From the NCBI GenBank assembly GCA_016209155.1, contig JACQWU010000324.1, positions 1-9,875 of the forward strand: a stretch of 9,875 nucleotides of DNA. Reading direction: 5' to 3'. Positions within the stretch are counted from its first letter, which is position 1. Every line of letters starts with the position of its first letter. The notes under the pieces are model-generated. The model did no database searches. It had not been told where the DNA came from and saw only the letters and a program-made list of their open reading frames with translations. Origin of the DNA: Candidatus Desantisiibacteriota bacterium (GTDB lineage Bacteria; JACRDZ01). The translations under genes and the position numbers were made by a program. Of the stretch, positions 1 to 9,875 are shown in pieces.

Positions 1-1029
1 GGGTTGCTTTGGGAAGATAGGCCTACTGTTATTGATGAAGCCCAGCGGTGTTCCGAGCTTTTGGTCACGGTTAAATATCTTGTTGATAAATCCAACCGCC
101 GCAGGAAGTTTATCCTTTCAGGTTCCGGGAATATATCACTACGGAAGGCGCCAAGGGAGACCTTGGCAGGTCGGGCAAAATATTTGCATTTGACAGGATT
201 TGGTTTTAGAGAAATGAGCGGATTGCCTGTCCATGGAATCTTTGATGAAATATGGTCAGGACGGGAGATTGGAGACTCAACTATAAAATTGACAGCGGAT
301 ATTTCTCAATCCGTATGGCGGGGATGCCTCCCGGGTGTCGCACTTGCGGCAAATGAAAAAATAGCATTGGAACGGCTTAGTAGTTATATCGATACTTATA
401 TTCAGCGGGATATGCATGATTTAGTTAAAATAAGGTATCCTCAGCATTTTCGCAGATTGATGCAAGCGCTGGCGCAAGCGACAGGCTGGGAATCCGTGCA
501 GGAGGAACTTTCAAAAGCATGCGGTGAGACCAGGACAAATGTAAGCAGATATATGAGTTTATTAGAAGATACCAATCTTTTGTATAATATAAAAGGTTAT
601 GCTGCCGGAGGTGAGAGAGCGTATAAACAATCAAAATATTTTTGGTTTGATTCAGGAACAGCGTGTTTTCTTGCCGGTATTTATCAAGCTGCAAATCTTT
701 CGGAATCCCGGGTCAAAGGACGTTATCTGGAGAATTTTATCTTACAACAGATTTTATCCTGGATTTCCCTGCAAGTGACTGCTCCCGAGATATTTTACTG
801 GAAGCCAAAGGCACATGATGTAGAGGTTGATTTTGTCGTTTGTTTAGCCAACAATATTTTAGGTATAGAAGTAAAATCCTCCAGAGAAATTACTTTTAGC
901 GATACCAAACAGATGCGGGAATTTATTAAATCTCATCCGCAGGTTTCGAAAGGTATTATTGTTTATACGGGGAATAAAATATATCCAGTTGCATCAAATA
1001 TTTATGCTGTTCCATGGACCGCGATTTAA
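1..1029 (+). CDS. AAA-type ATPase with DUF4143 domain, 5' part missing
   Basis: The reading frame is open from the left edge, so the start and the Walker A loop lie outside the window. What remains (about 342 residues) begins at the Walker B strand, PTVIDEAQR, followed by a sensor-like FILSGSGN and LAGRAKYLHLTGFGFREM, the AAA_14 pattern in which the arginine of LAGR follows the serine-rich strand. The middle (about residues 125-230) is the winged-helix part of DUF4143 (for example TRTNVSRYMSLLEDTNLLY). The C-terminal part carries EVDFVV and ILGIEVKSS, an E/D-x-EVK layout like the PD-(D/E)XK nuclease fold found at the end of this family. Family members are usually near 400 residues, so perhaps 50-70 are missing. 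The biological role of this family is poorly defined; many copies per genome are common in anaerobes. The TTG at position 4 is an internal codon, not a start. Family assignment is firm, function is not. Confidence 0.9.
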   Translation, partial: GLLWEDRPTVIDEAQRCSELLVTVKYLVDKSNRRRKFILSGSGNISLRKAPRETLAGRAKYLHLTGFGFREMSGLPVHGIFDEIWSGREIGDSTIKLTADISQSVWRGCLPGVALAANEKIALERLSSYIDTYIQRDMHDLVKIRYPQHFRRLMQALAQATGWESVQEELSKACGETRTNVSRYMSLLEDTNLLYNIKGYAAGGERAYKQSKYFWFDSGTACFLAGIYQAANLSESRVKGRYLENFILQQILSWISLQVTAPEIFYWKPKAHDVEVDFVVCLANNILGIEVKSSREITFSDTKQMREFIKSHPQVSKGIIVYTGNKIYPVASNIYAVPWTAI

Positions 1030-2407: not shown

Positions 2408-2436
2408 TTGACAACACATTGTTGTAATGGTAAAAT
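2408..2436 (+). promoter_or_regulatory. Promoter of the RAMP operon with overlapping inverted repeat
   Basis: TTGACA (2408-2413), a 17-base spacer, and TAAAAT (2431-2436, five of six to consensus), with TG one base before the -10 (extended -10). Start of transcription would be near 2443. ACAACA (2411-2416) and TGTTGT (2420-2425) form a perfect 6-base inverted repeat with a 3-base centre CAT, covering the end of the -35 box and the spacer, which is a typical place for a repressor to bind. The regulator is not in the window. Confidence 0.75.
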
Positions 2437-2442
2437 TCTAAA

Positions 2443-2562
2443 AATATTAATTTGTCTTACCGTTGTGCACTATCACTACCACCGTTGTTTAATACCACTC
2501 ATTATTTGTTTTGGATTTTAGTTTTGTAATTATATAATGATTACCAACTTTTGAGGTGGAAT
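2443..2562 (+). promoter_or_regulatory. 5' leader of the RAMP operon
   Basis: About 120 bases between the predicted start of transcription and the first gene. It contains the direct repeat ACCGTTGT at 2459-2466 and 2481-2488 and, further down, a perfect TATAAT at 2533-2538 with only a weak TTGGAT 16 bases upstream, which could be a second, weaker promoter. GTAAT (2526-2530) and ATTAC (2540-2544) flank this box as an inverted repeat. The leader ends in the strong ribosome site GAGGTGG at 2553-2559. No known riboswitch fold was recognised. Confidence 0.4.
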
Positions 2563-3624
2563 ATGAGTGACAATAGCAATCTAAAACAACATATATCCCT
2601 TTTTATTTATCCATTTCATTTTACTATTCCAGATAAACATGTTATCGAAAAACTCATGTTATCAGATTCTCTGTGGAAACAATTAGAAGTAGATCAAAAT
2701 ACAAGTGAATATCTTTATTTTGTTCCATCAGCGAAAGATTTATTATTTAAAAATAGATTTGAGTTAAAAAATCCCAGTGAGTTTAAAATAAAATATAAAA
2801 CTTGTTTATATCAAATTAATTCAATCTATTTAAATTTAATGCCAAATAATATTGCTATGTTATCTTTTGATATAAAAAATATTGCAGAAAAAGATGAATA
2901 TAATTTAAATAGTTTATTAGATTTTAACGAATCTTTTAGATATGTTTCTGATATTTATAAAGATCATTCTGCCTCAAGAAATGGACTTACCATAGAATCT
3001 TCTTTTTTTAATCTTCAAAATGGTTTGACTGAAAATTTAATTGATTTTTTGTTTAAACCAATATTTTCTAATGAAAAAGATGAAAAACAATATAAACGAT
3101 TATTTGATGAAAGAATGATTTCATTGAGTATGGCTTCTTTAGATGAAAAATTGTCGGATGAGCTAAGTTATAAATTTTTCAATGTAGATTCAAGTAATAT
3201 GCAATTACCGGATGATGAATATATTAAAAAATATTTAGAAGAGAATACATACAAGAGATGGAGAGATAAAGGTGTGTTTTATGGTTTTACACATTATGGT
3301 TTTGGATGTATTTCTTTTGGTGATAATAAATGGTTATTAGAAGTTTTTAGAAGACAGTATTCAGATTTGGCGATTATTATTTGTTTTCAATATGGTGTTC
3401 TAAAATTAATTAACGAACAGCTATTATTAACAAATACAAGAAATACAAATAAAATTGATGAGCTAAATGAATTATTTAAAGACTTTATAAAAGATTATTG
3501 GTTTGATCTCATCACAAATCAAGATCAAGGCAGGGAAATATTTCTGTTATGGAAATCTATTTTTGAAAAAGAATATCATCTTTGGGAAATTATTAATGGA
3601 AAATTTGAGATATTATATAAATAA
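2563..3624 (+). CDS. Operon gene 1: soluble paralogue of the CorA-like membrane protein
   Basis: A 353-residue protein without a family name that I can give with certainty. It is a clear paralogue of the next gene: SLFIYPFHF (12-20) against TIFIYPFYY, SEYLYFVPSAKDLLF (48-62) against AEYVYFHPYIRDILF, INSIYLNL against IDSIHLSV, FDERMISLS (181-189) against LDDRMIVYS, YKRWRDKGVFYGFTHYGF (230-247) against YDRWLDYGTLYGFSRF, and DYWFDLITNQDQGREIF (311-327) against KYWFIEITGQEQGIDI. It stops just where the paralogue enters its coiled coil and two membrane helices, so it should be cytosolic. The ATG is chosen because GAGGTGG lies 3 bases upstream of the AT-AT-G context (GAGG to ATG 6 bases); a TTG at 2551 would overlap that site. 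First gene of the operon, 12 bases before gene 2. It may form mixed oligomers with gene 2 or regulate it; this is inference. Confidence 0.75.
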   Translation: MSDNSNLKQHISLFIYPFHFTIPDKHVIEKLMLSDSLWKQLEVDQNTSEYLYFVPSAKDLLFKNRFELKNPSEFKIKYKTCLYQINSIYLNLMPNNIAMLSFDIKNIAEKDEYNLNSLLDFNESFRYVSDIYKDHSASRNGLTIESSFFNLQNGLTENLIDFLFKPIFSNEKDEKQYKRLFDERMISLSMASLDEKLSDELSYKFFNVDSSNMQLPDDEYIKKYLEENTYKRWRDKGVFYGFTHYGFGCISFGDNKWLLEVFRRQYSDLAIIICFQYGVLKLINEQLLLTNTRNTNKIDELNELFKDFIKDYWFDLITNQDQGREIFLLWKSIFEKEYHLWEIINGKFEILYK

Positions 3625-3636
3625 GCGAGGTTAAAT

Positions 3637-5196
3637 ATGAGAATTGAACTATCTGATAAAAATGTAATCAAATATTCAACTATCTTTATTTATCCTTTTT
3701 ATTATAGTTCAAATAAAAAAGAGATAGTTACCATACTCGAAAATTCCCAAAAATGGAAAACAGAAAAATTTAACATCAAAGAAGAAAATAAACGTGCTGA
3801 ATATGTTTATTTCCATCCTTATATTAGAGACATACTTTTTTCTCAAAAAGAAAAGGAAGCCGAATTATATAAATCACCTGTTACCTATTTAGGTTATTCT
3901 AAAGAAAAAAAATTATTGCTAAAGGTTAAGTATCCGGAAAAAAATAAAGATAATAATTGGGATTGGGAGGAATACGTCTCTAATCAAGAAAGATATTACC
4001 CTATTGATTCTATACATTTAAGTGTTTTTGAGTTTGGTATTGGAATCCTTTCAATTCAAATCTCTGAATGTATTGAAGTTAATAATTTTATCGGTAAAAA
4101 ATTCAAAGAAATTTTAGTTTTCAATGAATTAGCAAGAAAAATATCAGCATCTATTAAACCTTCTGAACAAAAAAAGCAAGGACGTCTTTTAGATTCAATT
4201 AATATTGAAGGTATTTCAAATAGTAAAGAAGAATTTAAAGATGAATCTTTTTTATCAATAGAAAATGGGTCAATAGATGTTTCTAATGTTATAAAAAGTT
4301 TACTTACACCAATTCCCAGTTTTCAAAGTGTATTAGATGATAGGATGATTGTATATTCATATGTATGTTTTGATGAAAAAGAAGTTGATGCTAATGATAT
4401 TATATCTGCTCATGAAGATTTTTTAACATTTACATTTGTAGATAAACAATGGAAAGGTTCGTTTGCCAACAGAGCATTGATAAATGAATATTTAAAATTG
4501 CATCTTTATGATAGATGGTTAGATTATGGTACTTTATATGGATTTTCACGCTTTAGTAGTACTTGTTTAGTTAATGGGTCTAAAGGATCACTTACTTTTA
4601 GTACTATTTATGATCATTTTGAGACCATATATTACGAAATTGCATTGCTTACGTATTTTCAAAGAGCAGCACTTTTAAGCTTTTCTAGAAAAGCAGCAGA
4701 ATGTGCAGAGAAACTAAAACAATCAGAGAAAAATGCTTATGAAAATATAAAAAAATTAAAAAAAGATTTTTTGTTATTTACTAATAAATATTGGTTTATC
4801 GAAATAACTGGGCAAGAACAGGGAATAGATATTCATAATAAATGGAGCGATGTTATAAAAAATAATCAATTATTTGAAGAAGTAAGACAGGAATTAGCTG
4901 AACTGGATGAATTCGTTGAAATTATACAAGCAAATAGTTTGAATTTATTTATGGAAATTTTAACGATTATAGCAACAATAGGTTTAATTTTAAGTTTATG
5001 GATTGGATTTTTTTCAATTAGTATACCAGATAAAATATTCTGTTTTACAAACCTTGGATCTATTTCCTACATGATTTCATTTTTAATTTGCATGGTTTCT
5101 ACAATTTATATTATAAAATTTTTCTCAGAGGATAACATACAAAAAAAGTTAGTTGAAAAAACAAAATTTTTTTTAAAGGATTCAAATAATGAGTGA
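3637..5196 (+). CDS. Operon gene 2: CorA-like two-helix membrane protein, candidate effector
   Basis: A 519-residue protein. The N-terminal 350 residues are soluble and match gene 1 in order along their length; residues 291-306 (YDRWLDYGTLYGFSRF) and 385-400 (YWFIEITGQEQGIDIH) are the best conserved parts. A charged helical segment (about 350-430) leads into two hydrophobic helices, about 438-460 and 474-495, followed by a short lysine-rich tail. This order, large cytosolic domain, long helix, two C-terminal membrane helices, is that of CorA magnesium channels, and NLFMEILTIIATIGL resembles the start of their first helix. The GMN signature after helix one is absent (GFFSISIPD instead), so ordinary magnesium transport is doubtful. 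CorA-like proteins are known companions of type III CRISPR systems, in one case responding to SAM-AMP. GAGGTT precedes the ATG; the stop overlaps gene 3 by 8 bases. A membrane effector role is inference; an unrelated two-helix family is possible. Confidence 0.65.
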   Translation: MRIELSDKNVIKYSTIFIYPFYYSSNKKEIVTILENSQKWKTEKFNIKEENKRAEYVYFHPYIRDILFSQKEKEAELYKSPVTYLGYSKEKKLLLKVKYPEKNKDNNWDWEEYVSNQERYYPIDSIHLSVFEFGIGILSIQISECIEVNNFIGKKFKEILVFNELARKISASIKPSEQKKQGRLLDSINIEGISNSKEEFKDESFLSIENGSIDVSNVIKSLLTPIPSFQSVLDDRMIVYSYVCFDEKEVDANDIISAHEDFLTFTFVDKQWKGSFANRALINEYLKLHLYDRWLDYGTLYGFSRFSSTCLVNGSKGSLTFSTIYDHFETIYYEIALLTYFQRAALLSFSRKAAECAEKLKQSEKNAYENIKKLKKDFLLFTNKYWFIEITGQEQGIDIHNKWSDVIKNNQLFEEVRQELAELDEFVEIIQANSLNLFMEILTIIATIGLILSLWIGFFSISIPDKIFCFTNLGSISYMISFLICMVSTIYIIKFFSEDNIQKKLVEKTKFFLKDSNNE

Positions 5197-6784
5197 TAAT
5201 TTAAATAATAATTTTACCTGGGATTTTGATTCTAATGATATTCCTCCTTATGATCTTTGGCTTTTTAAATGGGAAGCCACTAATATTTATGATTATATAT
5301 TTGAAACGGATGATTTAAATCTTATACGTGGCGCAAGTCAATTACTAAAAAATTTTAAAGATGATATAAAAAAAATAGTAAATGGAAGTACTTATAAAAT
5401 TCAGACTGTGTATAATGCTGCAAGTCAATTTCTTGCTATAGTAAATGGCAATGAAGCTGATGTTAAAGAATTTGGAGGAAATATAATTGATAAATTTAGC
5501 GGTGATGAATATTTTGGAACCAGTGCTTATGGAATTGTAAATTTAAAACAATTATATTTCACTGGGAATATAAAATTATTATATGCTATTCAACAATGTG
5601 AAGAACAAATTTTGAGAAAACGACTTAGATCTTTAGATGTTTATCCGGGTGCAAATAATTCATTGCTTGGACTGGATGAAGTAGATAAGCTTCGATTAGC
5701 AGATAAAAAAAGTCCTAAAGTTTATAGAGATGGAATGGATAATAAAGAATTAAATATGTCTTCCGGGACATATGTTAAATTTAATAATGGAAAAGATGAG
5801 CGCTGGGGACTTATTGAAGATATTTACAAATTAAAATATGTTCATTTAATTAACAAAAAAATTTTTTTTCAGGATATTTCTTCACTTTCAAAAATAGGCG
5901 TAAAAGAGAATAACGGTTATATATCTTTTATTACTGTTGATGGGAATGGATTTACAAAAGAAAGAGAAAATATAAAAACACTTTCAGGACTTTGTGAATT
6001 CAGTGTGTTTATTGAAAATATTCAAAAAAAATGTATTTTAAATGCTATAGAAAAAGAATTAAATGAAATTAATGTAAACATAAAAAGTACACAAAAAACT
6101 GCACAACCTGTTCAACTTTTATATATGGCAGGAGATGAATTTGATCTTATTGTAAGAGGGAATAGAGGGATTGATGTGGTAAATAGCCTAATATTTAACT
6201 TTCCTGAAATTTGTAAAAGTGAATTAAAAAATTATGGGAAAATAAAAAGTATAACAGAACTTGAGAAATTATCAATTTCTGTTGGACTTGTATTTGCTCA
6301 TGCTAATACTCCTATTAAATTAATTAGAGAAGCAGCACATGAACTTAGAAAAAATTCAAAAAATAAAAGCAGAGAAGATTCAATTATTGATTTTATGGTA
6401 TTTGAATCACATCCGACAACAAGTGATGGAATTAATGAATATCGTAAAAAAAATTTAGAAAATGGTACTAAAAAATTTTATAGTAGACCATACATAAAAG
6501 ATGATTTTGTAAAGTTGATGGAAATTATTATAAAGTGCAAACAGAATAAACTTCCAAAAACACAATTGTATAAATTAGTTTCAGAGTATAATGAATTTAT
6601 TAAACATGTTAAACAAAAATCATCTAAAGAACAATTATTGCAAAAATTTAGTAAAATTAAAGAAACAATCGTGAATATTCAGTTTAATAATATGAATAAT
6701 GAAGTGAAAAGCATAAAAGTATTTTTACTAAATAATTCTAAAAGCATTATAGATTTTTATGAACTATATGATTATGTTCATTAA
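5189..6784 (+). CDS. Operon gene 3: compact Cas10/Cmr2-like palm protein with AGDEF motif
   Basis: A 531-residue protein with the layout of the Cas10/Cmr2 palm region. Residues 23-54 (FKWEATNIYDYIFETDDLNL, then IRGASQLL) match the first palm start; 247-255 (FITVDGNGF) corresponds to the strand with a metal-binding Asp (D251); 311-318 (LYMAGDEF) takes the place of LYxGGDDx; 363-372 (ISVGLVFAHA) followed by TPIKLIREAAHELRKNSK matches the SxGxxxAHxxxP helix region; RPYIKDDFVKLMEII (433-447) resembles the RPYTxxEL segment of such proteins; a helical C-terminal domain follows (about 440-531). There is no HD nuclease domain at the N-terminus and no clear zinc finger. Cas10 enzymes are usually 700-1000 residues. 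AGDEF is a known working variant in GGDEF cyclases, and D251, D316 and E317 are kept, so a nucleotide-polymerising activity is possible. The ATG follows AAGGA and overlaps gene 2 by 8 bases. Confidence 0.75.
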   Translation: MSDNLNNNFTWDFDSNDIPPYDLWLFKWEATNIYDYIFETDDLNLIRGASQLLKNFKDDIKKIVNGSTYKIQTVYNAASQFLAIVNGNEADVKEFGGNIIDKFSGDEYFGTSAYGIVNLKQLYFTGNIKLLYAIQQCEEQILRKRLRSLDVYPGANNSLLGLDEVDKLRLADKKSPKVYRDGMDNKELNMSSGTYVKFNNGKDERWGLIEDIYKLKYVHLINKKIFFQDISSLSKIGVKENNGYISFITVDGNGFTKERENIKTLSGLCEFSVFIENIQKKCILNAIEKELNEINVNIKSTQKTAQPVQLLYMAGDEFDLIVRGNRGIDVVNSLIFNFPEICKSELKNYGKIKSITELEKLSISVGLVFAHANTPIKLIREAAHELRKNSKNKSREDSIIDFMVFESHPTTSDGINEYRKKNLENGTKKFYSRPYIKDDFVKLMEIIIKCKQNKLPKTQLYKLVSEYNEFIKHVKQKSSKEQLLQKFSKIKETIVNIQFNNMNNEVKSIKVFLLNNSKSIIDFYELYDYVH

Positions 6785-6799
6785 AAAGGAATAATAGTA

Positions 6800-8704
6800 A
6801 TGGAACAACTTAAAATAAATATAAAAATTAGATGTCCAATTCTTACAGCAGGAGTTGGAGTAAGTCAAATTGGTATTGATATTAATCAGTTGAAAAATAG
6901 TGCAGGAAATCCAATCATTTCAGGTACTCATATAAAGGGTCGTCTTAAATTCGCTATTCTTCAAATATTACTGGCGTATGATGATGATATTTATACTATT
7001 CCATCGATAAATATAGAAGAAAAAGGTAAGAGAATTGATTTTTGGATTTCTCGTCTTGAAATTATTTTTGGCTCACCAGATAAGTTACCATCATCAATTA
7101 TAATAGATGATTTTGCTCTTCAAACTGGAATACCATTTTCAATTAATCATAGAATTGCGATTTCAAGGGATACCGGAACAGCAAAAGAAGGCGCACTTGT
7201 ATTTATGGAAGGGGCAAAATTTGGACAGGAATGTGACTGGATTGGAACAATTCAACTGCCACAAAATGGTATTTGTGAATTATCATTTGAAGAACTAAAG
7301 AGTTTGATTATATATGGATTTTTATGGTTTGATAGTATTGGTACTCAAAATAATATAGGGTGGGGTAAAATAATAGGAAAAAAAATTGAAAAACCTGCAT
7401 TTAATTTAGATGTTATTGTTGGTAAAATTAAAACAATTAATCCTACTATAAATAAAGTTGAACCTGAATACAAAGTAAATATTAGCAGTGAATGGGATTC
7501 ATTTGGGATAAAAATAGAATTAAGAAGTCCTTTATTAATAGCAGAACATTCAACAAAGAATAATTTTTTTGAAGGAAGAGATGATATCCCTGGAAGTGTA
7601 ATAAAAAGAGCTATTGCAGATTATCTATTATTAGAATTAGGAAAGCAACCTGGAGATTGGATAAACGAAAAATTGGTTAATGCTCCAAAAGGGGAAGAAT
7701 ATTCTGAAATTATTAAAGAATTTTCATCAGTTTTAATTCGTTTTGCTTTTCCAATAAACCCTGATATAGAAAAAATTGAGCGCCCATTTCCATTACCTAT
7801 TACTAGTTTTGCTTATAAAGGATGGCAATACAGTGAAAATGATGTACCAAGGGATATTTTAATTAATGATTTATTGGATAATATATATTTAACACATATA
7901 AAAGGGAATCGGATTGAATTTAAATGTGATAATAATTCATTAAATGGCTGGAGAACAATGGATGATGAATCTATTTTTATACCGCAACATTTTATCCATA
8001 CAAGGACTGCTATAAATAATTTTACTCTTGCTTCTGAAGACGCGAAACTTTTTAGTTATAAAGCTATTAGTAATATGAATAATAACAAGCAACAAATTTA
8101 TATTGGTGAAGTTATTTTCCCTAAATCAGAACCGCTTAAAAATCAAATAAAAAATATTTTGTCCAAAGTAAACACTATAGGTAAAGCATCAAGACACGGA
8201 CTAGGGAAGATTGAGATAAAAGAAATTTCTTTTGAAAAAGATAATTGGGAAGTAAGATTAAGTGAGTTTAATAAAATAATTAAAAATGACAAATTTTTAG
8301 TCCCAATTATGTTAGTTACGGAGGCAATTCTCCTTGAACCTTTTAATGTTCAGCTTAATAGTGATCTTAAACAAATGTATGAAATTACATGGAAAAAAAT
8401 TTTTGGGGAAAATATTGTACTTAAAACATTTTATGTAAATCATAAATTAAGGGGGATACGAAAATCAAGATATGGGGTACCTCCTGTTATTCTTACTAAT
8501 GCTGGAAGCGTGTTTTTACTAGAAATAGATAAAAAAGAACAAAATAAAATAAAAGAGATTTTTTTATCCGGGATTGAGGTTAGTGCCTATTTAGATAGTA
8601 TTGATAAAAAATGGAATTCATTCTGCCCTTATAGAAGGACAAATGGTTATGGTGAAGTAATTATCTGTCATCCAATCCATTTAAAAGGAGTCTCTAATGG
8701 ATAG
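6800..8704 (+). CDS. Operon gene 4: Csm3-like RAMP fused to a Csx10-like RAMP
   Basis: A 634-residue fusion. Residues 1-210 are a Cas7/Csm3-type RAMP: IGID (24-27, with D27 where Csm3 has its RNA-cleaving Asp), ISGTHIKGRLK (40-50), IIDDFAL (101-107), HRIAISRDTGTAKEGALVF (117-135) and the glycine loop NNIGWGKI (184-191). Residues about 230-634 resemble Csx10 of subtype III-D: IPGSVIKRAIAD (263-274), ERPFPLPITSFAYKGW (327-342), HTRTAINNFTLASEDAKLFS (400-419), GKASRHGLGKIEI (461-473), and a last part with NAGSVFLLEI and YRRTNGYGEVII. In type III complexes Cas7 subunits form the backbone on crRNA and Csx10 is taken as the Cas5-like cap; fusion would fix them side by side. AAGGA precedes the ATG, 15 bases after gene 3; the stop overlaps gene 5 by 8 bases. 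The RAMP assignment is firm, the Csx10 match is from motif memory. Confidence 0.82.
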   Translation: MEQLKINIKIRCPILTAGVGVSQIGIDINQLKNSAGNPIISGTHIKGRLKFAILQILLAYDDDIYTIPSINIEEKGKRIDFWISRLEIIFGSPDKLPSSIIIDDFALQTGIPFSINHRIAISRDTGTAKEGALVFMEGAKFGQECDWIGTIQLPQNGICELSFEELKSLIIYGFLWFDSIGTQNNIGWGKIIGKKIEKPAFNLDVIVGKIKTINPTINKVEPEYKVNISSEWDSFGIKIELRSPLLIAEHSTKNNFFEGRDDIPGSVIKRAIADYLLLELGKQPGDWINEKLVNAPKGEEYSEIIKEFSSVLIRFAFPINPDIEKIERPFPLPITSFAYKGWQYSENDVPRDILINDLLDNIYLTHIKGNRIEFKCDNNSLNGWRTMDDESIFIPQHFIHTRTAINNFTLASEDAKLFSYKAISNMNNNKQQIYIGEVIFPKSEPLKNQIKNILSKVNTIGKASRHGLGKIEIKEISFEKDNWEVRLSEFNKIIKNDKFLVPIMLVTEAILLEPFNVQLNSDLKQMYEITWKKIFGENIVLKTFYVNHKLRGIRKSRYGVPPVILTNAGSVFLLEIDKKEQNKIKEIFLSGIEVSAYLDSIDKKWNSFCPYRRTNGYGEVIICHPIHLKGVSNG

Positions 8705-9707
8705 AAATGAATATTTGAAAAAAATAAAGAGGGATAGATATTTCCCTGGACCTGAAATTATTAATATTTATAAAATTATTGGAAAACTGAAGACAGCTAC
8801 CCCTTTACATATAGGAAGTGGAGACTCTGGTAAAAAAGGTATTTCCGATGAAGAAGAGAATAATTGTGCTTTAATTGAAAGGGACAATAAAAAAATGCCT
8901 TATATCCCTGGTTCATCACTTAGAGGGACTCTGAGAAATTATCTTGAAACTAATTTAACACCATTTAATTCAATTGATGAATACGATGTTTCAAGTCTTG
9001 TAGTGACGAGTCTGCCTGATGCTGAATTTGAAAAACATAAAGGGATTACTGATGATGATATTGAAAATAAGAAAAATGAAATAAATCGTAATTTATTTAA
9101 CAATTTATTATCTGGTAATGAATCTGAGAAATATCTTTCAAATGAAATGGCAAAATTTTATATAGAAAATCTTGACCTTATAGCAGGATTATTTGGATCT
9201 GGACGATATAAAGGGAAAATAGAAATAGATTCAGGTATTATTCTAGATCCTTCTGATTGGTCAGATAAAAAGATATTTATTATGCCTGGTGTTGCAATTG
9301 ATCAGGAAACAGGAACAGCAAAAGATAAAAGTCTTTTTACTTATGAATTAATTACACAGGATGTGGAATTTAAGATTGAATTTACTTTAAGAAATGTGAA
9401 GTATTGGGAATTAGGTATGATATTTGAAGCAATGAATGCTTTTAATCATAAACATTTTCCACTTAGACTAGGTGGTTTAACAAATAATGGTTATGGAAAG
9501 ATGTCATGTCAAATAGAAAAGGTATATCAAATTGGAGATGATGATAGAAAAGAAGCAGGTAAAAAAGTTAAAAATGATATAAAAATATTTAATGAAAATG
9601 GTAATTGGGAAAGTTTTTTTATTGAAAAAAGAGGATTTAGTGATATTAATTCATTTGAAGAAAAATGTTTAAACAAATTTAATGAAGATATATTGTGTAA
9701 ATTATAA
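8697..9707 (+). CDS. Operon gene 5: Csm3-like (Cas7) RAMP protein
   Basis: A 336-residue RAMP. It shows the Cas7/Csm3 series: LKTATPLHIGSGDSG (31-45), GISD with D51 in the position of the Csm3 catalytic Asp, YIPGSSLRGTLRN (69-81), LFGSGRYKGKIEID (165-178), GVAIDQETGTAKDKSLFTYE (198-217) and the glycine loop RLGGLTNNGYGKM (257-269). About 80 residues between the first and second blocks (82-163) are charged and helical and look like the insertion found in some Cas7 proteins. The C-terminal 60 residues are lysine- and acid-rich and may pack against a neighbour. AAGGAG stands 6 bases before the ATG, which lies inside the end of gene 4, so the two are translationally coupled and probably made in fixed ratio. 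It likely forms the RNA-binding backbone together with genes 4 and 6. Confidence 0.88.
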   Translation: MDRNEYLKKIKRDRYFPGPEIINIYKIIGKLKTATPLHIGSGDSGKKGISDEEENNCALIERDNKKMPYIPGSSLRGTLRNYLETNLTPFNSIDEYDVSSLVVTSLPDAEFEKHKGITDDDIENKKNEINRNLFNNLLSGNESEKYLSNEMAKFYIENLDLIAGLFGSGRYKGKIEIDSGIILDPSDWSDKKIFIMPGVAIDQETGTAKDKSLFTYELITQDVEFKIEFTLRNVKYWELGMIFEAMNAFNHKHFPLRLGGLTNNGYGKMSCQIEKVYQIGDDDRKEAGKKVKNDIKIFNENGNWESFFIEKRGFSDINSFEEKCLNKFNEDILCKL

Positions 9708-9731
9708 GTTAAGTTTTTGAGGCATGATAAA

Positions 9732-9776
9732 ATGTTAATAGAATTAAATCGTATTTTATTATTAGGAGAATATTAA
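9732..9776 (+). CDS. Possible 14-residue upstream reading frame
   Basis: The only gap above 20 bases in the operon (9708-9775) holds an ATG at 9732 with GAGG nine bases upstream (9719-9722). It encodes MLIELNRILLLGEY and ends at TAA 9774-9776, whose last A is the first base of the next gene's ATG (TAATG). It may couple or throttle translation of the next gene, or may be chance in AT-rich DNA. The ribosome site of the next gene, AGGAGA, lies inside this frame. Confidence 0.3.
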   Translation: MLIELNRILLLGEY

Positions 9777-9875
9777 TGTTTTCATATAGTTTATTACGCT
9801 GTTTAATTGATTATGATATTATTGTTGATTCTCCAGTATATATAGGTGGAACATTAGAAAAAAAACTTTTCAAAA
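9776..9875 (+). CDS. Operon gene 6: RAMP protein, 5' part only
   Basis: The first 33 residues of a gene that runs off the right edge. YDIIVDSPVYIGGTLEK (13-29) is the usual first strand and turn of RAMP proteins (hydrophobic strand, then SPVxIGG). AGGAG is placed seven bases before the ATG. With only this much, the subgroup (Cas5/Csm4-like, Csm5-like or another Cas7) cannot be decided. Its place after two Csm3-like genes suggests a further subunit of the same complex. Confidence 0.65.
   Translation, partial: MFSYSLLRCLIDYDIIVDSPVYIGGTLEKKLFK

Follow-up and report, generated by a model that had tools for sequence, protein, structure and literature searches.

What kind of CRISPR system places two CorA-like genes ahead of its Cas10, one of them without a membrane segment, and what would the second copy do? 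The question is raised by a six-gene operon in contig JACQWU010000324.1 (C291) of a Candidatus Desantisiibacteriota bacterium. The window, the whole stretch of 9,875 nucleotides that was analysed, is this complete contig, and its right end falls inside the sixth gene. We think it likely that the operon is the right-truncated effector part of a CorA-associated type III-D system, in which a signal resembling S-adenosylmethionine-AMP (SAM-AMP) would drive a CorA membrane output and gene 1, the copy without membrane helices, would tune the response. The genes and sites of the operon are as follows (window positions; aa, amino acids).

2408-2436, plus strand: promoter-like site, TTGACA-17-TAAAAT with extended TG; consensus match only, 11/12
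2411-2425: inverted repeat ACAACA-CAT-TGTTGT (6-3-6), across the -35/spacer of the promoter-like site
2563-3624, plus strand: gene 1, CorA-like sensor domain without membrane helices, 353 aa (PADLOC CorA, E 2e-38)
3637-5196, plus strand: gene 2, full-length CorA-like membrane effector, 519 aa (PADLOC CorA, E 3e-76)
5189-6784, plus strand: gene 3, HD-less Cas10 (PADLOC Cas10, E 4e-36)
6800-8704, plus strand: gene 4, Csm3 (Cas7)-Csx10 (Cas5) fusion (PADLOC Cas5_IIId and Csm3)
8697-9707, plus strand: gene 5, Cas7/Csm3-like RAMP protein, 336 aa (Pfam RAMPs, E 7e-25)
9776-9875, plus strand: gene 6, 33 codons of a further gene, cut by the contig end

Operon structure and gene identities

The six plus-strand genes are spaced by -8 to +68 bases, and the GC content is 0.26 across the operon versus 0.38 in the left flank. 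This agrees with an earlier sequence-only reading of the contig, which had proposed one tightly packed, low-GC operon with a common promoter. The promoter-like sites of the region, 65 in all, are as a set no more numerous than in shuffles, so the case for the candidate at 2408-2436 comes from its rank (best of the 65) and its place. The inverted repeat that overlaps it is a possible operator or repressor site. For gene 1, the ATG at 2563 with its GAGGTGG ribosome-binding site is favoured over the TTG at 2551 given in the open reading frame (ORF) list. Gene 6 probably encodes another Cas7; its 33 residues are too few for profile identification.

The Cas10-like palm protein and the RAMP proteins of the sequence-only reading, among them a Csm3-Csx10 fusion, are supported by profile searches, as is its view of a III-D-like RAMP operon with a likely membrane output. 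Gene 3 matches Pfam palm2 above cut-off (E 3e-8) and keeps the acidic residues of both palm motifs, DGNGF (D251) and AGDE (D316, E317); no profile matched an HD domain in it. In gene 4 the Csm3 match occupies the N-terminal third and the Csx10 match the remainder. The best NCBIfam match of gene 4 is TIGR02674 (Csx10, E 8e-17), although at 62 bits it falls below the cut-off of 177, and its D27 aligns in a conserved Cas7 active-site column that holds D in most relatives. Gene 5 is matched by TIGR02581 (E 2e-23) and is Csm3/Csx7-like according to PADLOC. The Pfam RAMPs matches of genes 4 and 5 are both above cut-off. We did not find a Cas11/Csx19 small-subunit gene in the visible part of the operon, which stops at 9875, nor, in a profile search of the visible operon genes, an HNH or PD-(D/E)xK nuclease domain.

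The best PDB sequence match for genes 3, 4 and 5 is the complex 9wxh (chain B, E 6e-11; chain C, E 5e-15; chain D, E 2e-15, respectively). This complex contains Cas10, a Csm3-Csx10-like chain of 635 aa and a TIGR03986-type chain of 1235 aa. Its Cas7 modules lie within one giant chain, whereas the window has separate genes, and no CorA chain was found in it by sequence.

In a tree that used Cas10s of ordinary III-D and of III-B systems for reference, the window Cas10 is sister to the Cas10s of CorA-associated III-D loci, not to those of ordinary III-D (SH-aLRT 99), and it shares the DGN/GDE motifs with them. As in the published CorA-associated III-D systems (PMC12669027, PMC10600005, PMC11229360), corA lies directly upstream of an HD-less cas10, and the Csm3, Csx10 and Cas7-like RAMP genes are common to both; relatives carry a cas1 of the reverse transcriptase (RT) type, cas2 and an array. 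The window differs in its additional CorA paralogue without transmembrane (TM) segments and in its divergent Cas10. The gene combination, which the sequence-only reading had not recognised as a described subtype, is published as far as CorA beside cas10 in III-D is concerned (PMC12669027, PMC11229360); the TM-less paralogue is the new part.

The CorA-like pair and its recurrence

Genes 1 and 2 are paralogues with 28% identity, and membrane helices are predicted in gene 2 only, as had been noticed from the sequence. Gene 2 has the layout of a CRISPR-associated CorA, a sensor followed by C-terminal membrane helices: its stalk helix (409-460) runs into TM1, and TM2 spans 472-497. Its AlphaFold2 model has a mean predicted local distance difference test score (pLDDT) of 77. 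The best VIA-align row is E. coli CorA (Z 8.2, root-mean-square deviation 3.1 over 97 residues), which is tied with unrelated helical chains and followed by many CorA chains. Gene 1 lacks the C-terminal membrane helices of a CRISPR CorA effector. Its model (pLDDT 87; predicted template modelling score 0.89) has a sensor like that of gene 2 and terminates in the stalk helix. A Foldseek comparison of this model with solved structures gave no significant match, and its best VIA-align row, again E. coli CorA, is within noise (Z 5.6). For the N-terminal half of the sensor (residues 10-174 of the gene 1 model), many ligand-binding folds of the START/Bet v 1 type are listed, repeatedly but at Z values of 3-4, below noise.

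The sensor of gene 1 is well preserved. Of the invariant sensor columns in a 20-protein CorA-like alignment it matches 7/7, including R126, D182 and R184, and it further keeps Y52, F308, Q320 and Q322. R126 and D182 align with the R152-R153 and D219-D220 pairs of Bacteroides fragilis CorA; changing these pairs to alanine abolished immunity (PMC10600005). The second position that holds RR in B. fragilis CorA reads RY or RK in the two window proteins. Both proteins branch deeply within the CRISPR CorA family, and the branch of gene 1 is long. The gene 1 frame is uninterrupted over 353 codons, at about 24% GC, and has its own ribosome-binding site.

The pairing is not confined to the window. A search of about 790 sampled genomes with the CorA alignment as query found at least one further III-D operon with a pair of CorA-like genes, L175 of genome G442, which belongs to a distantly related bacterium. 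There a 585 aa CorA with TM segments lies upstream of cas10 (motif GGDD), a 397 aa TM-less CorA is the last gene, and a 14-repeat array follows directly beyond it. The sensor columns of the TM-less copy read R, D-D-R and Q-Q, and those of the TM copy E-P-N and E-Q. The sensor residues are thus kept in the soluble copy and changed in the membrane copy, which fits the prediction of a division of labour between the two. A tree forcing both TM-less proteins together was rejected (approximately unbiased test, p-AU 0.015), while one forcing window genes 1 and 2 together was not (p 0.14). A single TM-less lineage is therefore disfavoured, and the TM-less copies of the window and L175 may tentatively be given two independent origins, with their long branches as a caveat.

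Related loci, NrN and the likely signal

A contig scan with the single window Cas10 as query returned no locus. A Cas10 alignment, built with locus L037 and the 9wxh chain and scanned against a single genome for each species, found 65 loci, or 66 with L037 itself. A CorA homologue is present in 43/66; the idea that CorA genes might never be linked to RAMP genes, named in advance as a possible refutation, does not hold for this family. The common gene order is cas6 - corA - cas10 - csm3/csx10 fusion - cas7 - TIGR03986-type cas7 - (nrn) - RT-cas1 - cas2 - array, and the csm3/csx10 fusion of L065 is hit by a PADLOC model labelled III-D (E 1e-74). The phylum-level group of the host was represented by only four genomes in the search, the host included, and the three others yielded no CorA relative of the window kind.

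Further genes could be evaluated where a CorA-positive locus had 7 kb or more of sequence downstream of cas10 (n=25). An array is present in 13/25, cas1 in 14/25 and an NrN-type DHH phosphodiesterase in 12/25. The same profiles were applied to 20 ordinary III-D loci found with the standard Cas10 model, and neither CorA nor NrN was detected in any of them (NrN, 12/25 versus 0/20; Fisher p 3e-4). NrN is either encoded on its own at the end of the operon, e.g., in L037, L051, L065, L070 and L087, or joined to the N terminus of CorA (L054, L055, L064, L077, L082, L093). The PADLOC model C3a116 matched 16/16 of the NrN proteins tested and DHH_CorA matched 13/16, and the DHH motif is intact. About 0.5 kb upstream of its corA, L061, which has no NrN, encodes a DEDD exonuclease resembling Rv2179c (Pfam E 2e-11).

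Two other groups of loci were noted during this survey. A protein of about 100 aa, WDGH-domain-like by its best Pfam match, which is below cut-off, lies at the operon end in L068, L071, L072, L076 and L091, where no NrN was found. CorA-like homologues sharing the sensor domain occur in L036, L038, L039 and L040 and on Azospirillum and Vitreoscilla plasmids, and no cas genes were recognised beside them in the stretches read. These homologues may sense similar nucleotides in settings other than CRISPR.

Work on other systems has established that SAM-AMP is made by the Cas10 of a III-B complex, bound by CorA and removed by NrN or by a lyase (PMC10600005, PMC12255297). The III-B system of B. fragilis (Cmr, CorA and NrN; PMC10600005) resembles the window in its conserved CorA sensor residues and its Cas10 palm output, and its NrN partner is also found in the window's relatives. 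It has Cmr-type subunits and one CorA, whereas the window has III-D-type Csm3, Csx10 and Cas7, two CorA and a signal that is predicted. The 2025 classification states that III-D loci encode no SAM-AMP-cleaving enzymes, and leaves the III-D CorA ligand open (PMC12669027); many relatives of the window nevertheless carry NrN. It has been remarked elsewhere that most CorA proteins are accompanied by degrading enzymes (PMC11229360), so the NrN finding may partly be known to specialists.

On the reading that we prefer, a complex of Cas10, Cas7 and Cas5 guided by CRISPR RNA (crRNA) would bind phage or plasmid RNA, and the Cas10 palm would thereby be activated. The small nucleotide that the palm would then produce as a signal is most likely SAM-AMP or a conjugate close to it. 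It would bind to gene 2, the membrane CorA, at the sensor on the cytoplasmic side. Gene 2 would open or disrupt the membrane, and the infected cell would be stopped. The soluble paralogue most likely tunes this response, either as a channel-less sensing subunit within the CorA oligomer or as a buffer that binds the signal.

The same operon could instead use a cyclic oligoadenylate or another nucleotide, with its CorA branch adapted to a different ligand and gene 1 adjusting that pathway. CorA proteins of an Actinomyces clade linked to Csm6-2 have been proposed to be activated by cyclic hexaadenylate, cA6 (PMC11229360), the III-D ligand is left open as mentioned above, the SAM-binding residues of Cas10 are not confirmed in the window, and RY or RK replaces RR in genes 1 and 2. 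We regard this as unlikely. RY at that position is also found in L037, L065, L051 and L070, all of which bear NrN; the B. fragilis NrN cleaved SAM-AMP alone among the compounds tested (PMC10600005); and NrN accompanies CorA in about half of the evaluable loci and in none of the ordinary III-D controls.

Gene 1, the host's arrays and their implications

As a special case of such tuning, gene 1 might be an off-switch in place of NrN, a soluble sensor that sequesters or degrades SAM-AMP. The TM-less copy of L175 is last in its operon, the place taken by NrN in L037, L051, L065, L070 and L087, and NrN was not found on the 16 kb piece of contig that carries L175. Window gene 1, however, is first in its operon, and a catalytic motif is not known for its fold. 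The absence of NrN is unproven in both cases, as the window contig stops before the place where NrN would be expected and that of L175 stops just upstream of corA. An off-switch is hence an improbable role for gene 1, though one worth keeping in mind. A broader proposal, which we put forward only tentatively, is that a two-part III-D CorA of soluble sensor plus membrane CorA evolved at least twice and would work either as a heteromeric channel or as an inbuilt signal buffer in place of NrN.

It is less probable still that gene 1 is a decaying corA duplicate with no function of its own. None of the 43 CorA-bearing loci of the Cas10 survey has a second CorA, and the branch of gene 1 is long. Yet the frame and the ribosome-binding site are intact, the fold is confidently predicted and every invariant sensor residue is kept; the pairing also recurs in L175, for which a shared origin is disfavoured.

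Several points weigh against a SAM-AMP-like pathway tuned by gene 1. The window Cas10 is a long branch with at most 24% identity, so its placement is uncertain, and the SAM-favouring residues (B. fragilis D70 and E151) are not reliably alignable between III-B and the window's clade. Only two examples, the window and L175, are known of a TM-less CorA paired with a TM CorA. Neither NrN nor another SAM-AMP-degrading gene is present in the window, where the contig is cut inside the operon, and NrN was not found in the assembled, 79%-complete host genome by a search that had no positive control. It depends on the classification adopted whether the related loci are called III-D or a variant of their own.

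Profile and repeat searches found no array, cas1, cas2 or cas6 in the 9.9 kb window, as the sequence-only reading had stated. This lack is uninformative because the window is an entire contig that ends inside gene 6. The host genome (3.08 Mb in 352 contigs) holds other CRISPR parts. Contig C132 carries a type I-C-like system with an array, and C29 a type I-D-like cas set. A second III-D-like operon lies on the minus strand of C203 (L019; 5400-16400) and contains Cas10 (GGDD), separate csm3 and csx10 genes and an HD-CE-domain protein, with cas6 nearby. On C224 (L021), an RT fragment in another frame precedes cas1, and the contig also has two cas2 genes and an array of at least five GTTTCAGTTGCCTATTATCTTACCGGCTCTAATAC repeats that reaches the contig edge. 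Of the genome's three Cas1 proteins, that of C224 is the best match for 27/29 compared loci, mostly CorA-III-D relatives. Given this kinship, the crRNAs of the window operon could come from the C224 array, in cis or in trans.

The kinship with array-less HRAMP-type systems suggested by the sequence-only reading is not borne out. HRAMP and ARAMP systems (PMC12669027) likewise consist of a RAMP operon with no array in view, but typically have HNH or PD-(D/E)xK nucleases; the visible genes of the window operon include no such nuclease and do include a CorA effector. The Cas10 relatives of the window have cas6, RT-cas1, cas2 and arrays, the last in about half of the evaluable loci, and the host has the adaptation genes and array of C224. 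With the contig cut inside gene 6, a RAMP system that does without adaptation genes or an array is thus very unlikely here. A viral origin was rejected, as searches of viral contigs found no relative of Cas10 or of the gene 2 CorA and no phage match was found.

The left flank contains other genes. A 5'-truncated AAA_14/DUF4143 protein (1-1029, plus strand) matches the PADLOC phage-defence candidate PDC-S01 (E 4e-70). Two small ORFs on the minus strand (1691-2147; 78 and 79 aa), HicA/HicB toxin-antitoxin-like by eye only, sit between a CGGC-domain gene and the operon.

What is new at this locus is the soluble paralogue of CorA, of which there are now two cases, and, among relatives of the locus, NrN within CorA-III-D loci; we found neither published. 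The ligand of III-D CorA has been regarded as open partly since SAM-AMP-cleaving enzymes were thought to be absent from III-D. NrN, plus one DEDD exonuclease, beside CorA in III-D operons points to SAM-AMP or a close relative, and the NrN-bearing loci are named places for a SAM-AMP assay. Binding and structural studies could make use of the soluble paralogue, a sensor that occurs naturally without a membrane part, and its presence suggests a layer of control in SAM-AMP immunity that we have not found described.

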